From Ignavibacteriota bacterium (lineage in GTDB: Bacteria > Bacteroidota > Ignavibacteria > UBA10030): DNA of 33,490 bases. This document shows positions 4,867-13,490 of the stretch, piece by piece; positions within the stretch are counted from its first letter, which is position 1; every line of letters starts with the position of its first letter. The DNA is taken from NCBI GenBank assembly GCA_003162695.1, contig PMML01000127.1, forward strand, positions 1 to 33,490. The letters run 5' to 3'. The position numbers were made by a program, and so were the translations under genes. The notes under the pieces are model-generated. The model worked only from the letters and a program-made list of their open reading frames with translations, had not been told where the DNA came from and searched no databases.

Positions 4867-7491
4867 GTGAAGCGGTTGTCGGTTATATGTGTCCTTCTTT
4901 TTCTCCTTCTGCAGGGATGCGATGTCGACAAAAGTCCTCTCTCGGATCCTGCCGATATCTACGATCAGGCACTTGCTGCTGTTCGGGAACAGAACTATGT
5001 CTATGCAAAACAATTGCTCGAACAGGTTCTTCCTCAATTACGTGAACAGGCAGTTTCCGTGCATCTTGACGATGCACTTTTTCTCCTTTCACGCGTAGAA
5101 GTCAAACTGGGCGAGTTTCGCGCATCTCTCAATCACCTTCAGGAGGCAAGCGTTGTTGCCCGCAAAGAAGGAAATACCGATGAGGAAATGCAGCTCAGTT
5201 TGTTTGAAGCCGACCTGTATGAGTCCCTGCATGAAGATCATGATGCCGTCGCTCATTATCAATCTACGCTTTTACTCGCCAGCGCCTTCGACCATGCATC
5301 GATTCTTATAGAAACAAAACTGCGTATCGCTTCCATGCTCTTGAAGGCCGGTGAAGATGAAACTGCCCTTGACGAGTATAAGAGCCTTCTGGATCAGACT
5401 CAATCGGCAGATGATCGCAGCCGTCTGGCTGAAGTATTGCAGGGCCTCGGTCGTCTCTACGGGCGGCAGCAGAAATATGCGGAAGCGCTCAATGCATTTG
5501 CTCAGGCGGAAAGTTCGGTGGGTGAGGTTCAGAATCCTCTTCTGGCTTCATCTATTGAATCGGACATAGGGTATTTGCATATGGAACGCGGCAGCATCAA
5601 TGAAGCGCTTCGGGCATATCGTGAAGCAGTCAATATTCTCCGCCAGTCGCGAACAGGAACGGAATATGAGCCGACTCTTCTTTTTCAAATCGCTCAAATC
5701 TATGAAAACAGCGGTCGGCTTGCCGAAGCAAAAAAATATTACGGCGATGCTCTGGAAACAGCGCGGAAAAAAGGGGACAGGCTGACGGAATATTATTGTT
5801 CGATATTCGTTGTTCGCTGCAATTTCACGCTGATGACACCGGAGCAGCGGATACAGAACGAAAATCTTCTGCGTCAATCGTACGAACAGCTTGCCAGAAA
5901 ATTCAATGAGATCGACCATCCTTCCGGAGAGGGTTATCTCTATAACGTCCTCGGATCTTTTTCCGAGCAGGCTGCGGATTTTGCGTCTGCCCGGGAGTAT
6001 TATCTAAAAGCGGTTGTTGCGGATCAAAACACTTTTGGCGAATACTATGACGATGCCATCCATGGCCCGTTCCGGGAAGCCTTGCATATCCGGGCAGGTC
6101 ATACCGCATGGTATTCCGATCTTGCCGCGCTTTTATTGAAAATGAACCAGTCCGGGGATGCATTGAAAATTCTCGAATTATCGAAAGCAAGAGAATATGC
6201 CGGGACTTTCCGTTCGCTCAATATTACAATCAGGCATCCCCAATTAAAACAGCAGACAATGGCTGTGCGGGAAGAACTTCGCAGATCTGCGCTGAGAGAA
6301 ATGGAACTGGGGGCGCGTTTAGCCAACAGGCGGGCGGATCCGGCGGGAACGGCTTCGCTGCGTGCGGAACTTGAAGCGTCGAAAAAAGCGATTCAGAAGG
6401 AGTCGTACGATATTGCCGGCCAGTATCCGAATTACGAAACGCTCGTTCTTCCGAAACCTGTGGAAATTGTCCAGGATAAGAAAAGTGTTCCGGCTGGAAC
6501 GATTGCAGTCCGCTATTTTCCGATGAATGATCGATTGTCGATTTTCGTTCTTACACGATCGGAACTTTTTGTAAGGACTTCTCCAATCGGCCGGGACAGC
6601 CTGATGCGCCTTCTGGATGAATATAAAAGTTTGATGCAGGACCCGGCGGTCTATTCGGGCGAAGGCGGCGCATCGAGTCTCGGACCTATGACTCGCTATG
6701 CTCTCCTGTCAACCCAGCTGTACGATCTGCTGTTTCGGCCGATTGAAGATCTCTATCAAAGGAGCATGATCATTGCCCCTTCGGACGGGATGGAAGGTTT
6801 TCCGTTCCATGCGCTCGAGCGGCAGGATGCTCATGGAGTCCATTATCTTGTGGAGCTGACGAGCGTGGATTATGTGCCGTCACTTTCCGCGCTGAGATAT
6901 ATTTCCGCATCTGCCAAACATTTGAACGATGTTGTAGCATTCGGGAATCCGACCGGTAAAAATTGGTCGGTCGATTACGAACTGCGCGATATACGGAGCT
7001 TTTTCAAAGGAGTCAAAATTCTCGTCGGCCTGGAAGCTTCGTGGGCTAATTTAAAATCAGTCAAGGCGGATGTTCTGCAGCTTTCGACGGACTTTGGTCC
7101 TTCCGGCATCGTCGATCCTCTGGGGACAATTTCCCTGTCCGACGGTCTTACGGTGGAACAATCGACGGCGGTCGCTTTTGAAAAATTATCGGAGTTGAAT
7201 GCACCGACGGTTTTTCTGCTCTCCAACCGTTCTACGCAGTCGGCTTTATCTGCACGGCAGGCAATGCTGCTTCGCATCAACGGGGTAACCGATGTTTTTT
7301 TAAATGCGTGGATTGCCGACCGTAAAGCGGCAAAATTCTTCAGTCAGTATTTCTTTACGCAGCTTGCCAATGGCTTGGCTCCGGGCGATGCATACCGTCA
7401 GGCGCTTCTCAATATGATCCGGGAACGGGATGTGAGGGAAGTAAGGCATCAGCGTTCGTGGGGGCAATTCTTCCACTACGGGATAGGATAA
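4867..7491 (+). CDS. TPR-CHAT lipoprotein with apparently inactive CHAT domain
   Basis: An 874-residue protein. The GTG start is chosen because GAAAGGAA lies ~10 nt upstream and it gives a full lipoprotein signal (MKRL, hydrophobic stretch, LLQGC with C18 as lipid-carrying Cys). Residues ~30-440 are tandem TPR-type helices (for example AEALNAFAQAE, NEALRAYREAV, AEAKKYYGDAL, ASAREYYLKAV). A charged linker follows to ~530. Residues ~540-874 follow the CHAT (caspase-like) fold: SMIIAPSDGMEGFPFHAL, SVDYVPSLSAL and a C-terminal FFTQLANGLAPGDAYRQALL. The usual catalytic ATHG His is D742 (QLSTDFG), and the usual SACET Cys is R788 (LLSNRST). I infer a non-proteolytic scaffold facing the periplasm. 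It ends 7 bp from the convergent toast-rack gene. Confidence 0.85.
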   Translation: MKRLSVICVLLFLLLQGCDVDKSPLSDPADIYDQALAAVREQNYVYAKQLLEQVLPQLREQAVSVHLDDALFLLSRVEVKLGEFRASLNHLQEASVVARKEGNTDEEMQLSLFEADLYESLHEDHDAVAHYQSTLLLASAFDHASILIETKLRIASMLLKAGEDETALDEYKSLLDQTQSADDRSRLAEVLQGLGRLYGRQQKYAEALNAFAQAESSVGEVQNPLLASSIESDIGYLHMERGSINEALRAYREAVNILRQSRTGTEYEPTLLFQIAQIYENSGRLAEAKKYYGDALETARKKGDRLTEYYCSIFVVRCNFTLMTPEQRIQNENLLRQSYEQLARKFNEIDHPSGEGYLYNVLGSFSEQAADFASAREYYLKAVVADQNTFGEYYDDAIHGPFREALHIRAGHTAWYSDLAALLLKMNQSGDALKILELSKAREYAGTFRSLNITIRHPQLKQQTMAVREELRRSALREMELGARLANRRADPAGTASLRAELEASKKAIQKESYDIAGQYPNYETLVLPKPVEIVQDKKSVPAGTIAVRYFPMNDRLSIFVLTRSELFVRTSPIGRDSLMRLLDEYKSLMQDPAVYSGEGGASSLGPMTRYALLSTQLYDLLFRPIEDLYQRSMIIAPSDGMEGFPFHALERQDAHGVHYLVELTSVDYVPSLSALRYISASAKHLNDVVAFGNPTGKNWSVDYELRDIRSFFKGVKILVGLEASWANLKSVKADVLQLSTDFGPSGIVDPLGTISLSDGLTVEQSTAVAFEKLSELNAPTVFLLSNRSTQSALSARQAMLLRINGVTDVFLNAWIADRKAAKFFSQYFFTQLANGLAPGDAYRQALLNMIRERDVREVRHQRSWGQFFHYGIG

Positions 7492-7498
7492 GAATGAT

Positions 7499-8368
7499 TT
7501 ATTTCCTTCGCACTTTTACGCTGCCCAATCCCGCCTCGATGTGAAACGTAATCCGTTCTTTCGTGTCGCCGAAAGAAGCCGTTTCATAGACTCCGTTTCC
7601 CTGCTTTTCAAAATCACTGTCCACATTGAAACTCGAAAGCCAGTTGTCGTCATAAAGCAGCCGTGCAGGGATAGATTTCGGTATATCCAGAGTGATCGAT
7701 CCTAATCCGACTTCAACGCTGACATCCGCTTCTTGATGAAGAGTGCCGCCGAAGTCGAGCTTATATGTTCCGACTCCGCCGCTGAACTTTAAAGAGCGGA
7801 AATTCAAATTGGAAAGCTGATGCGCTGTAAATTTGCTGACACCAGACTCGATGGAAATGTTCTGGGCTGTTATACTGTTGGGTTGAGAACATTCAAGGGA
7901 GACGCTGCTCGCGCCGGTGGAAACCCGCATTCCTTTTATCTTTAATCCCGTAACATCCAGTGTTGCTTTTCCCGCACCGTATTCGATGTCGAGAGAGACC
8001 GGAATGGCATCGGTTATTTGCAGAGAAAGGTGCCTGTCTTTATTTCGGTGATCGGAATCGTCATCCCATATTCCCATCGACTCTTTCAGTTTAATGCGGA
8101 GAGTGCCCTGGCCGTCGGAAACATCGTATGACATTTGGAGTTTATCCCTGATGTCGGACGATTCCTGGTAGTCGATCTCGGCGGCTTTATCTGAGGTGCC
8201 GCGCTCGAGCGTGAACGTTCCGAACGAGACCTCGACAATAACCCGAAGTTCTTTCTCATGAGTCCTTGGGTATTCGATATGCCGCGAATCCTGAGCATGA
8301 AGTGATGCCGCTGCAATGGCAGCCGCACCTATCAACGGCAAAAGTAATATGAATCGCTGCAGTTTCAT
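7499..8368 (-). CDS. Exported toast-rack / LiaF-like beta-solenoid protein
   Basis: A 289-residue protein with a signal peptide (MKLQRF, long hydrophobic Ala-rich stretch, cleavage near LHAQ). The body shows short repeated beta strands of the type found in toast-rack, DUF4097 and LiaF-like domains: VEVSFGTFTLERG, IEYGAGKATLDVTGL, VSTGASSVSLEC, IESGVSKFTA, FSGGVGTYKLDFGG, VEVGLGSITLDIP, ending in IEAGLGSVKVRRK. There is no membrane segment after the signal, so it should be periplasmic or surface-exposed. It lies 52 bp downstream of the ECF sigma gene on the same strand and is probably part of the same unit. No classical anti-sigma factor is adjacent. The function is unknown. Confidence 0.8.
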   Translation of the reverse strand: MKLQRFILLLPLIGAAAIAAASLHAQDSRHIEYPRTHEKELRVIVEVSFGTFTLERGTSDKAAEIDYQESSDIRDKLQMSYDVSDGQGTLRIKLKESMGIWDDDSDHRNKDRHLSLQITDAIPVSLDIEYGAGKATLDVTGLKIKGMRVSTGASSVSLECSQPNSITAQNISIESGVSKFTAHQLSNLNFRSLKFSGGVGTYKLDFGGTLHQEADVSVEVGLGSITLDIPKSIPARLLYDDNWLSSFNVDSDFEKQGNGVYETASFGDTKERITFHIEAGLGSVKVRRK

Positions 8369-8420
8369 TCGTTTGCTTCTCTCATGCTACTTCTTACGTT
8401 TTCGAGTGCAGAAAGTTGCA

Positions 8421-9137
8421 TTAATAGTGGCGCATTTTGTCTTTTAGCTGCTTGTAAAGAAGCTCACGTGCCCGGAAAATATGCGCTTTAACGGTCCCGA
8501 GCGGCAGCCGAAGGGTTTTGGCTATTTCGATGTATTCTTTTTCATCGACATGGCGCATGAGTATGACCTGGCGGTATTTAGGAGGGAGTGCCTGCATTGC
8601 TTCATCCAAAAGCAGCTTGCGCTGTTCTGCGATCATCGATTGGTCGGCGATCGGTTCGGCGTCTGCAATTTCGAACATGTAATCGTTCTCGTCCGATTCG
8701 ATGGGTGTATGAATAGAAAAAGTCTGCAGCTTCTTTTTTCTTAAATAATCGATGGCATTATTGCTTGCGATCTTGCACAGCCATGTGGAAAATGCAAATT
8801 CGTTGTTGAAGTTTTGAAGAGACGTAAAAGCCTTAATGAAAGCTTCCTGTGTCAGATCGTCGACCTCGTCGCTGCCGCGGACCAACCGTGAGACGAGAAG
8901 GCGCACCTGTTCATAGTATTTGGAACGGAGCTTCCGGAATGCTCCCTGATTGCCGTCAAGCGCACATTTGATAAGCCCGGTGTCTTCCTCACGCCATTCA
9001 CGGCGTTTTTTTTCCGCAAGTTCCTGCGCAGCGAGGCCGCGGCCAGTAGAACTGCGCACGGCGGCACTGCATGTGGAAGCGGAAACGCAGAATATATTTT
9101 TTGTTTTTCTCTTCGGCATCCGATGTTCGGCACACAT
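8421..9137 (-). CDS. ECF-type RNA polymerase sigma factor
   Basis: A sigma-70 family ECF factor that directs RNA polymerase to a specific promoter set. Region 2 spans ~65-135 (QGAFRKLRSKYYEQV, DEVDDLTQEAFIKAFTSL, FSTWLCKIASNNAIDYLRKKK). Region 4 spans ~180-232 (LPPKYRQVILMRHVDEKEYIEIAKTL, LPLGTVKAHIFRARELL). The ~50 N-terminal residues are low-complexity and unlike the family. A promoter-like GGACAA-N16-TATAGT on the minus strand (9168 to 9141) lies so close that the true start may be downstream, for example the ATG at 9119. The polymerase gene ends 71 bp upstream on the same strand with no visible terminator, so some read-through is possible. Confidence 0.9.
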   Translation of the reverse strand: MCAEHRMPKRKTKNIFCVSASTCSAAVRSSTGRGLAAQELAEKKRREWREEDTGLIKCALDGNQGAFRKLRSKYYEQVRLLVSRLVRGSDEVDDLTQEAFIKAFTSLQNFNNEFAFSTWLCKIASNNAIDYLRKKKLQTFSIHTPIESDENDYMFEIADAEPIADQSMIAEQRKLLLDEAMQALPPKYRQVILMRHVDEKEYIEIAKTLRLPLGTVKAHIFRARELLYKQLKDKMRHY

Positions 9138-9208
9138 TGTACTATAAAAATGGTAGCAAAAATTGTCCGCATGAGCAAGGATTGATTCGGCGGGAACAGA
9201 AATGTGGA

Positions 9209-11515
9209 TTAGATCTCGATACGGAAGAGCGGCAGTTCCTGCAGCGCCGGGAGCGGTCGTTTCGTTTTTTGGATTCCGAATTCCAGCTTCAGCCGCTGGA
9301 GATCGTAGCCGAAGGGAAGCAGGAGCGTCTCCATTGCGCGAAGGGCGAATTCGGTATACTGCTCGATGTCGTATCCGTCTTCGAAAGCGTAGAGCGCCAG
9401 CGGCTTTGCCTTCTCCGGTTTTTTTCTGCCGGACTGATCGAGTATGATGAATTCGATCGATTCGCCTGCCGAAAGATGTACGCCCATCGCCTCGATCATT
9501 TTCGCGACGACGGCGCTGACCGTGTTGGTGCTGTACTCGTCAGCTTCGCGTGTAATGTGCCTGCGCATGACGAGATCCATCGGATTGGCGCGTCCGCTGC
9601 GCAGAAGTGTTATAAACGGCCGTGCGGTATCGAGGACATCCGGCACGAGTGCGGAAAGTTCATCTTTCGTTTGTGCGTCTGCCATGGCTTTGAGCATGGC
9701 CGACTGCATATCTTTGACGAACTTCGGCGTGTCGCGGCGCCGTGCTTCGATGCCCCGCATTTTGCATTCGCCGCTGCGGTACCAACCCACATAATGATTT
9801 GCCGTGGTGATCTGCGGATCCGTTTTGGAGGAGGGGAAGAGAAGCCACCGGTAGATTCCCTCCAGCGAAATATCGATGCCGACGCGGCGGGATATTTCTT
9901 CTGCAAGTTCTTCGTAGTCCCGCTGCGCTGCCCCCTCTTTTTTGAGCCACACGCAATCCACGATGGCATGCAGCAGGCGGTAGCCGCGGCTCTCGGCAAT
10001 TTCTTTTGCGGTCAGAATCGCCTCACGCGAAAAAGCGTTGACCGATTCGTGCGCTTCGATACGTCCGAAGCGGGCGTTCTTATAGCCGAGATATCCGAAG
10101 CAGCTGACCAGCATCCATTTGAGCGCACTTTGCCTGTCGTCGTAGCGCTTGAAGAGCGTTTCGTCTTTTCCCTTGTAGAATTTTTTCATGCGCTTGTAAT
10201 ACGCGCGTTTCTTTACGACCGCACGAAGCGTTTCCGGCACGATGCCGGTCCGCTTTGCGCAGATCGAATAATCCAGCTCCGGAACGCGGCTGCGAATATC
10301 GTCCGGCGAACAGCAGCGGCAATTGATCGTTTCCGGCGAAACGTTGTGATTGACCATGATGCTCGGATACATGGAAACGAAATCTAGCTCGGCCACGTCT
10401 TCGTGATAGCCGACGGGAGGATTGAAAATAAGGCCGCCGCGGTCGGCCAGCAGCAGTATTTCTGCGGATTTGAAATCCTCCGCTTCCCGCTTCTTTGCCG
10501 GAATAAGAATGTTGTTCCGGTACGCCCAGGAAAGCTGCATGGAGGACATCGACGTGCCGATGCTTGCACGGCCCTGCCGCTGTCCGCACATCTGGGTTAA
10601 ACGGGTCATTTCAAGAAGTCCATCCAGATTGGCATTCGACATGGTAAAGGAGTTGTCCGCATCGACGTGCCAGCGGCCTGAGAGTGTAAACGCCCCGTCC
10701 TTATGCACGATCTTCCCGTACTGAAAAAAACTCGATTCTTTCGACGTGCGGTACTGTGCCGTGTCGTCCCGGTTCAGAAGGAGAGGAACCTCGAAATTTT
10801 GCGATGCGCCGGCGATCAACGGCAGCAGCTTCGAGTCGCCGTAATGTGTCAGAAGAATGTCCGGATCGCAGCGGTGCAGATGCCAGTTGAACGACTCCAG
10901 CATCTCGCGCGGGTCGTTCTGTTCCAGCAGGAACGAATGGTTTTCATAGCTGATTTCGAGGAGTATGTTCTTTTGATATTTCGGCGGGACGAAATCGTTC
11001 GCATTGCGCACGAGCATAATGGAAAGCGGCGGCAATTCGTACTCCAGCGCTTCCCGGTCGTCGTTCAGTCGCCACTCCGTCAATTCCCCGTTCTGATTTA
11101 TACTATAATCGCCGAGAGCCAGAGGGAAAAGCTGCGTTTCGTAGAAAAACAGTTGTTCGACGGGAATATCCGAATTGAAGAAAGCGAAATGCGGGAAAAA
11201 ATTTTCAAAATACCGCACGGCATCCTGGAACCGTCTCGTGTCGTGAACATGGACATAAAGGACATCGAGAGCATCGCCGGAATAAATCTCCGTGCGTGTC
11301 GTTTGCGTAAACGATACGCGCACCGGGCAGCGGGATGCCAGGACGGGGACACGTTTCGCATCGGAAGCGTTCAGGTGCAGAAAGAACGACGGCAGGAAGC
11401 GGCACCAGCACGGGATCCGCTCGCCGCTGCGCCCGATCAGCCACAGTGTCAGTCCCTGCTCGGACGGGTAAACGTCAAAGAGCCATCCGGAGACCAAGGA
11501 TTGTCGATTCATCAT
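9209..11515 (-). CDS. Family-B DNA polymerase, PolB2/Dpo2-like, with altered exonuclease and motif C
   Basis: 768 residues. Motif A is intact (D378-FVSMYPS). Motif B is changed from KxxxNSxYG to K466-WMLV-SCFGYLG (Asn to Val470). Motif C, normally DTDS, reads V519-D520-C-V-W, keeping the first Asp and losing the second. The exonuclease domain is recognisable (DPDILLTHYGDSKLLPL at 217-233) but the ExoII Asp is L230. ExoI DIE reads E187-I-S, and I cannot find ExoIII. The thumb ends in EYSTNTVSAVVAKMIEAMG and EFIILD. This pattern resembles the family of apparently inactivated archaeal B polymerases (PolB2; Sulfolobus Dpo2 is damage-inducible) and its few bacterial relatives. It is the third gene of the leftward operon from 12627. 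No Shine-Dalgarno site is visible; its start abuts 7-bp repeats. Confidence 0.9.
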   Translation of the reverse strand: MMNRQSLVSGWLFDVYPSEQGLTLWLIGRSGERIPCWCRFLPSFFLHLNASDAKRVPVLASRCPVRVSFTQTTRTEIYSGDALDVLYVHVHDTRRFQDAVRYFENFFPHFAFFNSDIPVEQLFFYETQLFPLALGDYSINQNGELTEWRLNDDREALEYELPPLSIMLVRNANDFVPPKYQKNILLEISYENHSFLLEQNDPREMLESFNWHLHRCDPDILLTHYGDSKLLPLIAGASQNFEVPLLLNRDDTAQYRTSKESSFFQYGKIVHKDGAFTLSGRWHVDADNSFTMSNANLDGLLEMTRLTQMCGQRQGRASIGTSMSSMQLSWAYRNNILIPAKKREAEDFKSAEILLLADRGGLIFNPPVGYHEDVAELDFVSMYPSIMVNHNVSPETINCRCCSPDDIRSRVPELDYSICAKRTGIVPETLRAVVKKRAYYKRMKKFYKGKDETLFKRYDDRQSALKWMLVSCFGYLGYKNARFGRIEAHESVNAFSREAILTAKEIAESRGYRLLHAIVDCVWLKKEGAAQRDYEELAEEISRRVGIDISLEGIYRWLLFPSSKTDPQITTANHYVGWYRSGECKMRGIEARRRDTPKFVKDMQSAMLKAMADAQTKDELSALVPDVLDTARPFITLLRSGRANPMDLVMRRHITREADEYSTNTVSAVVAKMIEAMGVHLSAGESIEFIILDQSGRKKPEKAKPLALYAFEDGYDIEQYTEFALRAMETLLLPFGYDLQRLKLEFGIQKTKRPLPALQELPLFRIEI

Positions 11516-11549
11516 TGTTCGTAGTTCTTGGTTCTTAGTTCTTAGTGGT
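11515..11549. repeat. Degenerate 7-bp tandem repeat at the polymerase start
   Basis: Five 7-bp units of the TAGTTCT type: TTGTTCG, TAGTTCT, TGGTTCT, TAGTTCT, TAGTGGT. The first unit touches the polymerase ATG. The 126-bp gap in the operon is bounded on both sides by such repeats. Confidence 0.75.
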
Positions 11550-11637
11550 TATGTGACAAATGAAACCAGTACACTTAAAGAGTCGTGCTGCCGTGCGGCG
11601 GTGCTGCAGTGCTGCCGTTGTTTAACAATTCGTTTTT

Positions 11638-11672
11638 CTGTTCACTGTTTACTGTTCGCTGTTAACCGTTTC
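11638..11672. repeat. Degenerate 7-bp tandem repeat overlapping the 3' end of the 81-residue gene
   Basis: Units CTGTTCA, CTGTTTA, CTGTTCG, CTGTTAA, CCGTTTC. They encode the stop and about the last nine residues (KRLTANSKQ) of the upstream small protein on the minus strand. Its tail may therefore be repeat-derived. Confidence 0.75.
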
Positions 11673-11887
11673 AACGCTTTCTGCTGTTCTACCAGAATCG
11701 AGATAATGACGCTTTCGAACGGAACCGGACGCATGGTATAAAAATTCTCGGCAAGATGTTTCCTCGCCGCCCGGAAGATTTCATCGAAAGCGTCCTGGTC
11801 CTCTTTGCGCAGTCCGCGCCGGAATTTAGACCAGCTTGCTATTTCCGCATCGATCAGGTTCGTAAATGTCGGTACTGTCCGTCCCAT
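11642..11887 (-). CDS. Small 81-residue protein of unknown function in the polymerase operon
   Basis: I do not recognise a family. The sequence begins MGRTVPTFTNLIDAEIASW and is mostly charged and helical (KFRRGLRKEDQDAFDEIFRAARKHL, then SVIISILVEQQKALKRL). No signal peptide, membrane segment or metal-binding cysteines are present. The start is well supported: GGAG lies 7 nt before the ATG and the gene begins 14 nt after the RecA-like gene, so the two are tightly coupled. The polymerase follows after a 126-nt repeat-bearing gap. By position it could be an adaptor between the RecA-like subunit and the polymerase; that is inference. Confidence 0.8.
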   Translation of the reverse strand: MGRTVPTFTNLIDAEIASWSKFRRGLRKEDQDAFDEIFRAARKHLAENFYTMRPVPFESVIISILVEQQKALKRLTANSKQ

Positions 11888-11901
11888 GGTGCTGCTCCTT
11901 T

Positions 11902-12588
11902 TTATGCCCGGCCTGTTTTAAGGCTAGAGGTCTTATTGGTTGGTTTTTCAGCTTCTAAGAACACTTGCGGCGATCCTGCGGCGTCGGCGTCGAGTTTATA
12001 GACCCGGTCGACGCTGGATTTGAGCCGCAGAAAAAGACGGTTGCGTTCCTTTGGCGCAACCGTGCGCTCCAGGCAGACGATCAGAATGGAAAGTCCTTTG
12101 GATTTCATTTGCTGGAGCCGCTCTGCAACCCGTCCTAGAATTTGCTGCACCTCGCGCAGCGGGGCCTGTTCGTCGTAAAATGTTTCGAGCAATCCGAAGA
12201 TCATTGCCGTGCGGGAGTCGATCTTTGCAAGAAAGGCGGGAAGCTTGTCGGTGATCGCCTGTTCCATTTGATAGCAGGTAAATCCGCGGGAAATATATAT
12301 GTGCCGGAGAAATTTATTCGGATCGATGCGCCGCTCGCGGGCAAAACGGGTCAGTGCATGCACATCGAACCGGTTGCAGCCGTCTACGACGGCAATGGAA
12401 GAACCGTGCGCCATTGCCTGAGCCGCCATCCGGAGGGACAGGTTAAATACGAACGGGTTGCCGTAGAGGAGGTAAATCTTTCCCGGCTCCTCGGCGAACG
12501 AGCGGATAATGTGCGCTGCCTGTATTGACTGTGCCGGTGCCGGCACATGGCGGTTCATCATATAAGCCTGCAGGATATGGTGCGGCAT
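11902..12588 (-). CDS. RecA/RadA-superfamily protein with degenerate P-loop (ImuA-like role inferred)
   Basis: 228 residues. The order of core segments follows RadA/Rad51: a strand plus P-loop position at ~37-51 (KIYLLYGNPFVFNLS, where the normal GxxxxGKT is lost); SIAVVDGCNRFDVHALTRFARERRI (64-88), matching the RadA segment after the first helix; HIYISRGFTCYQM (96-108), matching the IyvaRaf motif; AMIFGLLETFYDE (128-140) at the Walker B position without its usual Asp; then SILIVCLE (167-174). It probably cannot bind ATP in the usual way. It is the first gene of the leftward operon, ~30 nt after the predicted transcription start. ImuA of the imuA-imuB-dnaE2 cassette is also a RecA-like non-recombinase partner, so an accessory role to the polymerase is plausible. 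The start could instead be the ATG at 12558 or 12555. Confidence 0.75.
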   Translation of the reverse strand: MPHHILQAYMMNRHVPAPAQSIQAAHIIRSFAEEPGKIYLLYGNPFVFNLSLRMAAQAMAHGSSIAVVDGCNRFDVHALTRFARERRIDPNKFLRHIYISRGFTCYQMEQAITDKLPAFLAKIDSRTAMIFGLLETFYDEQAPLREVQQILGRVAERLQQMKSKGLSILIVCLERTVAPKERNRLFLRLKSSVDRVYKLDADAAGSPQVFLEAEKPTNKTSSLKTGRA

Positions 12589-12626
12589 GATTTCACATTC
12601 TTCATTTCATCTTTTTATCTGCTGAA

Positions 12627-12655
12627 AGCATACGACAAAAATGTCGTCTTGTCAA
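12627..12655 (-). promoter_or_regulatory. Promoter of the RecA-like/81-residue/polymerase operon
   Basis: On the minus strand, TTGACA (12655-12650), a 17-bp spacer, then TATGCT (12632-12627). The predicted start is near 12620, giving a ~30-nt leader. The spacer is almost entirely operator 1, so a bound repressor would exclude RNA polymerase. Confidence 0.75.
12632..12647. promoter_or_regulatory. Operator 1 (SOS-box-like dyad)
   Basis: The perfect inverted repeat ACGACA-AAAA-TGTCGT sits between the -35 and -10 elements of the leftward promoter. It shares its half-sites and 4-bp spacing with operator 2. It is the probable binding site of the adjacent HTH-S24 repressor. Confidence 0.75.
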
Positions 12656-12719
12656 GAACAAAATAACATTTTTATCATATCAAAAAAAACACTTGACAAT
12701 GTAAAAGAAAAGCCGCATT

Positions 12720-12748
12720 TTCGATGTATGACATAATTGTCGTATAAG
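12720..12748 (+). promoter_or_regulatory. Candidate promoter of the HTH-S24 repressor gene
   Basis: TTCGAT (12720-12725), 17 bp, TATAAG (12743-12748), with operator 2 filling the spacer. A TTGACA at 12693-12698 has only a weak -10 (CATTTT) at the right distance, so the assignment is less certain than for the leftward promoter. Confidence 0.5.
12727..12744. promoter_or_regulatory. Operator 2 (SOS-box-like dyad)
   Basis: TATGACA-TAAT-TGTCGTA is a 7+4+7 dyad with one mismatch and the same half-site as operator 1. Its centre is 96 bp from that of operator 1. It lies upstream of the repressor gene, consistent with autoregulation. Confidence 0.72.
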
Positions 12749-12750
12749 AT

Positions 12751-12768
12751 AATCGGCAACAGCCGATT
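12751..12768 (+). other. Perfect hairpin at the 5' end of the repressor transcript
   Basis: AATCGGC-AACA-GCCGATT, a perfect 7-bp stem with a 4-nt loop, close to the predicted transcription start. It could stabilise the mRNA or be another protein-binding dyad. Its half-site differs from the two operators. Confidence 0.5.
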
Positions 12769-12799
12769 GATTAACAATTTGCAATGCATTGTTTTTTTA

Positions 12800-12827
12800 A
12801 CTATTGACTGTTTACAATTCACAATTT
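12800..12827. repeat. Degenerate 7-bp tandem repeat before the repressor gene
   Basis: Units ACTATTG, ACTGTTT, ACAATTC, ACAATTT in the leader of the HTH-S24 gene, ending 12 bp before its ATG. Confidence 0.65.
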
Positions 12828-12839
12828 ACCGGTAACCCT

Positions 12840-13490
12840 ATGAAATCGACCATAGCCAGCCGTATCAAAGAAGCGCGTACGGCAAAGCAGATAGATCAAT
12901 CCTTGCTTGCAGCGAGAATCGATATTGCCGTGCGGACCGTGCAGCGGTGGGAAAAAGGGGAACAGGTGCCCGACAGTAATTATCTGATGCGCATTGCAAA
13001 AGCGACCGGTGTCGCTTCGCACTGGCTGCTGACAGGAGAGGGGGAGATGTTTTTGCCGGAAACGATAAAGGGAATCGTGCATCCGCTGCCGATGAGTCGG
13101 TACCGGAAACTGGGACTGATATCGCTGCCATTGTTATCGTCGGTTCCCGGCGGTGCGCTGCGGCAGACGTTCCATCCCGACCATGCCGAGCGGCATGTTA
13201 CCGTCGATGACATACGGGATCCGGGCGCCTTTGCGCTGGAAGTAAAGGGAAACAGTATGGCTTCGCGCATTGAGAACGGAGATGTGATTGTCGTGAGTCC
13301 CCGAATGGAAGTGCACAGCGGGGATATCTGCGTCGTGCGCGTGGACGAGGAAGATACTGTCAAGCGTATCAAGATCGACGAACAATTCGTACACCTGATT
13401 CCGCTCAATCCGGAATACGAACCGATGGTCGTGCGCAAGCGGGACGTGACCTTCATGTGGAAGGTCGTCAAGGTAATAAAGAGTTTGTAG
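12840..13490 (+). CDS. HTH (XRE) - S24 self-cleaving transcriptional repressor, LexA/CI-like
   Basis: 216 residues from the ATG at 12840, chosen because the HTH then starts as in relatives; an in-frame start at 12804 would place the 7-bp repeat in the coding region. The N-terminal XRE helix-turn-helix is at ~5-62 (SRIKEARTAKQIDQSLLAARIDIAVRTVQRWEKG). The C-terminal S24 domain is at ~95-216, with catalytic S139 in KGNSM and K175 in DTVKR. The probable self-cleavage site is G104-G105 in SSVPGGAL, where LexA and CI have Ala-Gly. In this family RecA filaments trigger self-cleavage and derepression. It is divergent from the polymerase operon with two matching dyads between, so it is the likely repressor of that operon and of itself. 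Confidence 0.92.
   Translation: MKSTIASRIKEARTAKQIDQSLLAARIDIAVRTVQRWEKGEQVPDSNYLMRIAKATGVASHWLLTGEGEMFLPETIKGIVHPLPMSRYRKLGLISLPLLSSVPGGALRQTFHPDHAERHVTVDDIRDPGAFALEVKGNSMASRIENGDVIVVSPRMEVHSGDICVVRVDEEDTVKRIKIDEQFVHLIPLNPEYEPMVVRKRDVTFMWKVVKVIKSL

Follow-up and report, generated by a model that had tools for sequence, protein, structure and literature searches.

We analysed a 33,490-nucleotide stretch of DNA (hereafter, the window) from an Ignavibacteriota bacterium (contig PMML01000127.1, assembly GCA_003162695.1), in particular a leftward operon containing a family-B DNA polymerase of the PolB2 type and the helix-turn-helix (HTH)-S24 repressor gene that faces it. The open reading frames (ORFs) are located at 9209-11515, 11642-11887 and 11902-12588 on the minus strand and at 12804-13490 on the plus strand, and two matching dyads lie between the two transcription directions (Table 1). 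A preliminary description, made from the letters alone, had proposed a damage-inducible variant of the lexA-imuA-imuB-dnaE2 cassette. The four genes, among them the facing S24 repressor (Pfam HTH_3 and Peptidase_S24), and the paired dyads were all recovered by our analysis, and the assignment to that cassette family was not. The evidence presented below makes it likely that a PolB2 translesion mutasome operon is here under the control of a dedicated, divergent CI-type HTH-S24 repressor, which would act as a substitute for LexA.

Table 1. Genes and regulatory features of the PolB2 locus (positions in the window).
Feature	Position	Strand	Description and basis
polB2	9209..11515	-	PolB2/Dpo2-group family-B polymerase, 768 aa; Pfam/NCBIfam, PDB search, motif alignment (22 PolB2s)
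ppb2	11642..11887	-	Partner of PolB2, 81 aa, helical, starting with MGRT; homologue alignment, three-helix model
iRadA	11902..12588	-	RadA/Rad51-like core, 228 aa, without Walker A GKT; profile, AlphaFold, Foldseek
HTH_3 (CI-type) + Peptidase_S24 repressor	12840..13490	+	216 aa; Pfam, 22 orthologues
Operator O1 ACGACAAAAATGTCGT	12632..12647	n/a	Perfect dyad within the iRadA promoter spacer; kept at relatives' operons
Predicted promoter of iRadA-PPB2-PolB2	12627..12655	-	TTGACA-17-TATGCT, with O1 in the spacer
Operator O2 ATGACATAATTGTCGT	12728..12743	n/a	One mismatch; ~97 bp upstream of the repressor ATG

The leftward genes

Judged from their sequences, the three leftward genes are the already described PolB2 translesion operon iRadA-PPB2-PolB2. 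The three families are adjacent on one strand, running from 12588 to 9209, and the relatives keep this order, which was reported to be the only one found in bacteria (Timinskas 2025, PMC11791011). The cassette itself is not new, because it matches the operons of that study and of Makarova 2014 (PMC4104785), where sets of the iRadA-PPB2-PolB2 type were described in archaea and bacteria, with lexA in the same bacterial operon.

The polymerase matched Pfam DNA_pol_B with an E value of 9e-37, and its nearest models were archaeal type-B enzymes; the PolB2/Dpo2-like assignment already given to it stands. Its exonuclease domain is decayed and falls under the Pfam cut-off. Motif A reads DFVSMYPS, and motif C reads IVD instead of DTD, having lost the first Asp of DxD. 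This I-[IV]-D form is retained in 22/22 compared PolB2s; motifs A and B show strong conservation, and the NRD motif is conserved too in the alignments of the relatives. The C-terminus, QELPLF, resembles a beta-clamp binding motif, which was reported in either PolB2 or iRadA (PMC11791011).

The 228-aa protein had been read as a RecA-like accessory protein in a layout resembling that of imuA cassettes. Its membership of the RecA family stands, but profile and fold both place it as an archaeal-type RadA paralogue and not as ImuA: the match to the RadA profile had an E value of 1.2e-8, and Foldseek aligned its AlphaFold model (predicted local distance difference test, pLDDT, 88.5) to RadA/DMC1/RAD51 cores at about 1e-10 to 1e-9. 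The Walker A position is occupied by YGNPFVFNLS, without GKT. The search against phages with iRadA gave no match.

The 81-residue product, previously taken for an unknown protein in the place of a Y-family subunit, is the known partner PPB2. Among 12 homologues, including Nitrospirota proteins at 37-46% identity, MGR is invariant and most have MGRT. Its structure model consists of three helices with moderate confidence (pLDDT 74), and the fold search of this model against the PDB returned no significant match.

The conservation of the operon was evaluated on a close sample of 31 genomes from the family and order of the host, host included. PolB2 is present in 23 of them (host counted), and 19 of the 22 PolB2-bearing relatives have the three genes side by side; in the rest these are split over contigs or loci, or truncated. 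The co-location elsewhere that the preliminary description had set as a test is thus found. The named relatives come from Ignavibacteria-like or Bacteroidota metagenome-assembled genomes (MAGs), at 48-76% identity, followed by Nitrospirota, Chloroflexi and one Terriglobia MAG at ~40%.

The repressor and its distribution

The orthologue alignment places the start of the repressor at ATG 12840 and not at TTG 12804, from which the ORF is open. Its N-terminus is HTH_3/Phage_CI_repr and not the winged-helix LexA_DNA_bind (PF01726), and its score against the lexA model was 64.9, under the cut-off of 110.95. Ser (codon 13254-13256) and Lys (13362-13364) are invariant among 22 orthologues, and so is VP[G/A]G, which in the window carries the predicted Gly-Gly cleavage bond (13149-13154). 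What the preliminary description missed is this non-LexA repressor type, specific to the host order and provided with its own operator.

In the close sample, orthologues were found in 22/31 genomes (host counted), adjoining the operon in eight (in G005, next to iRadA) and unlinked elsewhere. They share 53-77% identity, span four families of the host order and have the same operator. In a class sample of 149 genomes, orthologues are present in 19, every one belonging to the host order; in a phylum sample of 392 genomes, matches of at least 55% identity are confined to this order, and those outside reach at most 40% and are mostly partial-length. Across the class sample, PolB2 occurs in 17/19 genomes with the repressor and in 12/130 without it. 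Canonical LexA shows the opposite pattern, being present in 2/19 repressor genomes (the host and G150) against about 109/130 of the others, and LexA is found in all 12 PolB2-bearing class genomes that lack the HTH-S24 gene.

Two genomes (G009 and G011) retain the repressor, and no PolB2 was found there. Furthermore, the orthologue at G140:C98:9910-10470 has two in-frame TGA codons, as a pseudogene or by assembly error, in a genome where PolB2 is still present.

Operators and promoter

The window contains two dyads of this kind where 0.01 are expected by chance, and no shuffle yielded two. On the minus strand, TTGACA (12655-12650) and TATGCT (12632-12627) are spaced by exactly 17 bp and enclose O1, and O2 is a probable autoregulatory site. 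The conserved consensus is ACGACA-W4-TGTCGT. With 0-2 mismatches, the operator was found at 30/80 named PolB2 loci, none of which has LexA next to it (20 of the 80 do). Where LexA is not adjacent (60 named loci), 20 exact copies were counted against 0.0 expected; the other 20 loci have 0.

The genes that follow the operator in relatives are iRadA or PolB2, HTH-S24 genes unlinked to the operon, and DUF72 genes. Others, each seen behind the operator in one or two genomes, encode a PA0069-family radical-SAM protein, TcmP proteins, a DUF5131 protein and a DinB-like polymerase. Such sites are located at L118, L119 and L120 (all G009), L114 and L113 (G005), L115 and L117. An unexpected target was observed at L124:2831 (G028:C9), where an exact operator in a good promoter stands before a gene for a cupin-domain protein (ChrR-like).

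The regulon searches were pattern searches, and at the one-mismatch level the 31 genomes contain 50 operator sites against 29 for the reversed control pattern. Since the reversed pattern also matches at one mismatch, we gave weight to exact sites, to where the sites lie with respect to genes and to their placement in promoters. As regards the last, 40/56 distinct sites lie in a TTGACA-17-TATnnT promoter scoring 9/12 or higher, as ~0.1% of random positions do. Most promoter-embedded sites with annotated surroundings point at the genes listed above. The placement in the promoter spacer across diverged genera is independent evidence that the sites function, by promoter blocking. In relatives, DUF72, DinB-like polymerase, radical-SAM, DUF5131 and TcmP genes are probably further targets of the repressor and would make up a small SOS-like regulon.

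LexA in the host and in relatives

The host encodes a separate canonical LexA (G000:C11), and LexA is unusual in the host family. An Escherichia coli-like box, TACTGT-N8-ACAGTA, lies upstream of the host lexA, before a small Cys-rich ORF (G000:C11, about 41.9-43.0 kb, L044). No further exact copy of this box was found in the host genome, including the PolB2 locus, and the LexA region contains no ACGACA site. Because the LexA box occurs only at its own locus, we assigned the host PolB2 operon to the HTH-S24 protein and not to LexA. In the LexA-bearing relatives G022 and G027, the regions upstream of the PolB2 operon showed no LexA-type box in common.

Two PolB2 cassettes were observed in the MAG fen_1300 (PLMK01; L186 and L222). 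One of them has the HTH-S24 gene and the ACGACA operator; next to the other lies a canonical LexA, and the operator is missing there. This could be a true coexistence or a case of mis-binning.

Neighbouring genes

The preliminary description had started the cassette at 8421, and 8421-9137 corresponds to an unrelated extracytoplasmic function (ECF) sigma factor gene. We rejected it as a cassette member, with no detectable copy at the examined PolB2 loci of relatives. This gene and the one that follows it, whose product has a C-terminus weakly matching LiaF-like proteins, form a separate unit (7499-9137). An 874-aa TPR and CHAT-domain protein (4867-7491) adjoins the ECF unit.

Alternative explanations

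Some observations weigh against control of the operon by a self-cleaving LexA substitute. The expected scissile bond is Gly-Gly (VPGG) in the host and in most orthologues, Ala-Gly (VPAG) being found in seven. LexA is cleaved at Ala-Gly and UmuD at Cys-Gly. Moreover, the host genome has two operator sites at 0-1 mismatch, both at the PolB2 locus, which therefore appears as a one-locus switch in the host and not as part of a global SOS regulon. In 3/23 PolB2-bearing genomes (G006, G022 and G027), no repressor was detectable. Lastly, the co-occurrence counts come mostly from one clade, and the genomes are not independent; we therefore read them as a replacement of LexA that probably happened once, and not as many independent events.

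A first alternative is that the repressor controls the operon without RecA-stimulated cleavage, in response to a signal other than DNA damage. The Gly-Gly bond would fit such a behaviour, and Streptococcus mutans IrvR is reported not to follow the RecA control of other LexA-like proteins (PMC7101444). Nevertheless, the invariance of the catalytic Ser and Lys, the Ala-Gly found at the equivalent position in seven orthologues, and the association of the operator targets of relatives with DNA damage make this alternative unlikely. We regard as equally improbable that the polymerase is effectively inactive and that its complex is a damage-linked replication-restart or structural factor instead of a bypass enzyme. 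The incomplete motif C and the decayed exonuclease domain agree with this idea, and Makarova 2014 (PMC4104785) discussed both inactivation and a role in regulation. On the other hand, Dpo2 of Sulfolobus islandicus, which also lacks that Asp, is active, extends mismatched termini and is needed for targeted mutagenesis (PMC11791011), and motifs A and B remain strongly conserved.

It is less probable still that some other regulator, such as the canonical LexA at G000:C11, uses the operator and that the divergent HTH-S24 gene is incidental. The host does have a canonical LexA, the position of the operator between two genes makes its assignment indirect, and in G006 the operator is present with no repressor detected. 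Conversely, the host LexA has its own box, exact only at the lexA locus, and no ACGACA site occurs in its region; the operator is kept in many genomes that lack LexA and have the HTH-S24 gene, where it is also found before unlinked HTH-S24 genes; and it is missing at PolB2 loci with an adjacent LexA. Finally, that the repressor is a prophage remnant lying beside the operon by chance can be practically dismissed: its top phage matches are CI/LexA-like prophage repressors at ~30% identity, but the neighbouring genes included in the search are chromosomal in type and not phage-like, and the protein is conserved over four families of the order together with its operator.

Discussion

With PolB2 control by the CI-type repressor as the preferred explanation, a working model can be outlined. 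A repressor dimer would bind ACGACA-W4-TGTCGT; at O1, its occupancy would block the -35/-10 spacer of the operon promoter, while O2 would mediate autoregulation of the repressor. Upon DNA damage, RecA bound to single-stranded DNA would stimulate the repressor to cleave itself at VPG|G through its Ser-Lys dyad, thereby derepressing the operon. PolB2, iRadA and a PPB2 trimer, a complex modelled for homologues (PMC11791011), would dock on the beta clamp via the C-terminal QELPLF of PolB2, and the docked complex would extend primers across lesions, mutations arising as a side effect. Archaeal PolB2 is damage-induced and has a role in mutagenesis (PMC11791011, PMC7390963).

The locus shares with the published PolB2 mutasome operon (PMC11791011, PMC4104785) the three families, the bacterial gene order, the MGRT arm, the inactive RadA, the missing first Asp of DxD and the clamp motif of PolB2, as well as DUF72 and SRAP neighbours in relatives. 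The difference lies in the regulator: the published bacterial neighbour is lexA, whereas the host and most of its order have an HTH_3-S24 repressor with a distinct operator. The layout is also shared with lexA-imuA-imuB-dnaE2 cassettes, which combine a self-cleaving repressor, a RecA-family accessory protein and an error-prone polymerase. Unlike them, this operon has no ImuB-like protein or other Y-family subunit and no C-family polymerase (DnaE2), its accessory protein being of RadA type and its polymerase of family B, and the assignment to that cassette family was rejected for this operon without ImuB-like protein or DnaE2.

The repressor HdiR has Y-family genes as targets. The non-canonical LexA of Bacteroidetes is expected to be cleaved at Ala-Gly (or Cys-Gly), and the window repressor has Gly-Gly. 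Those proteins (Sanchez-Osuna 2021, PMC8565304) share with ours a CI-type HTH and an S24 domain with a Ser-Lys dyad and, as predicted here, autoregulation and the replacement of canonical LexA; dinB, splB and SRAP-type genes are among the genes they regulate. The motifs reported for them, GGA-N5-TCC, CTAA-N5-TTAG and TTAC-N5-GTAA, differ from ACGACA-N4-TGTCGT; therefore, we liken the two by mode of action and do not claim clade membership. The text of that study does not mention Ignavibacteria or Chlorobi, and the sections consulted do not list PolB2 as a target. The study also describes HdiR of Lactococcus and Streptococcus as a phage-type repressor taken over for SOS genes, and our comparison with HdiR follows that description.

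In the open-licence literature, we found no description of the ACGACA operator or of an HTH-S24 regulator of PolB2. The mutasome being already known, what remains new appears to be the exchange of regulator and the operator. The work consulted on bacterial PolB2 mutasomes is computational and gives their regulation as lexA association only; with an operator predicted at a precise promoter position and a repressor to match it, whether damage controls a bacterial PolB2 operon can be put to a direct test. After the cases in Streptococcaceae and Bacteroidetes presented in PMC8565304, this would be a further apparent takeover from LexA by a phage-type repressor, in a lineage that allows the two states to be set side by side. 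On balance, and with some reservation, we favour the view that in the host order a phage-type HTH-S24 repressor replaced LexA together with a new operator in the promoter spacer, that the PolB2 mutasome, and not a Y-family or DnaE2 polymerase, would be a core damage-inducible output, and that each type of cassette may have its own regulator, both types being found in fen_1300.

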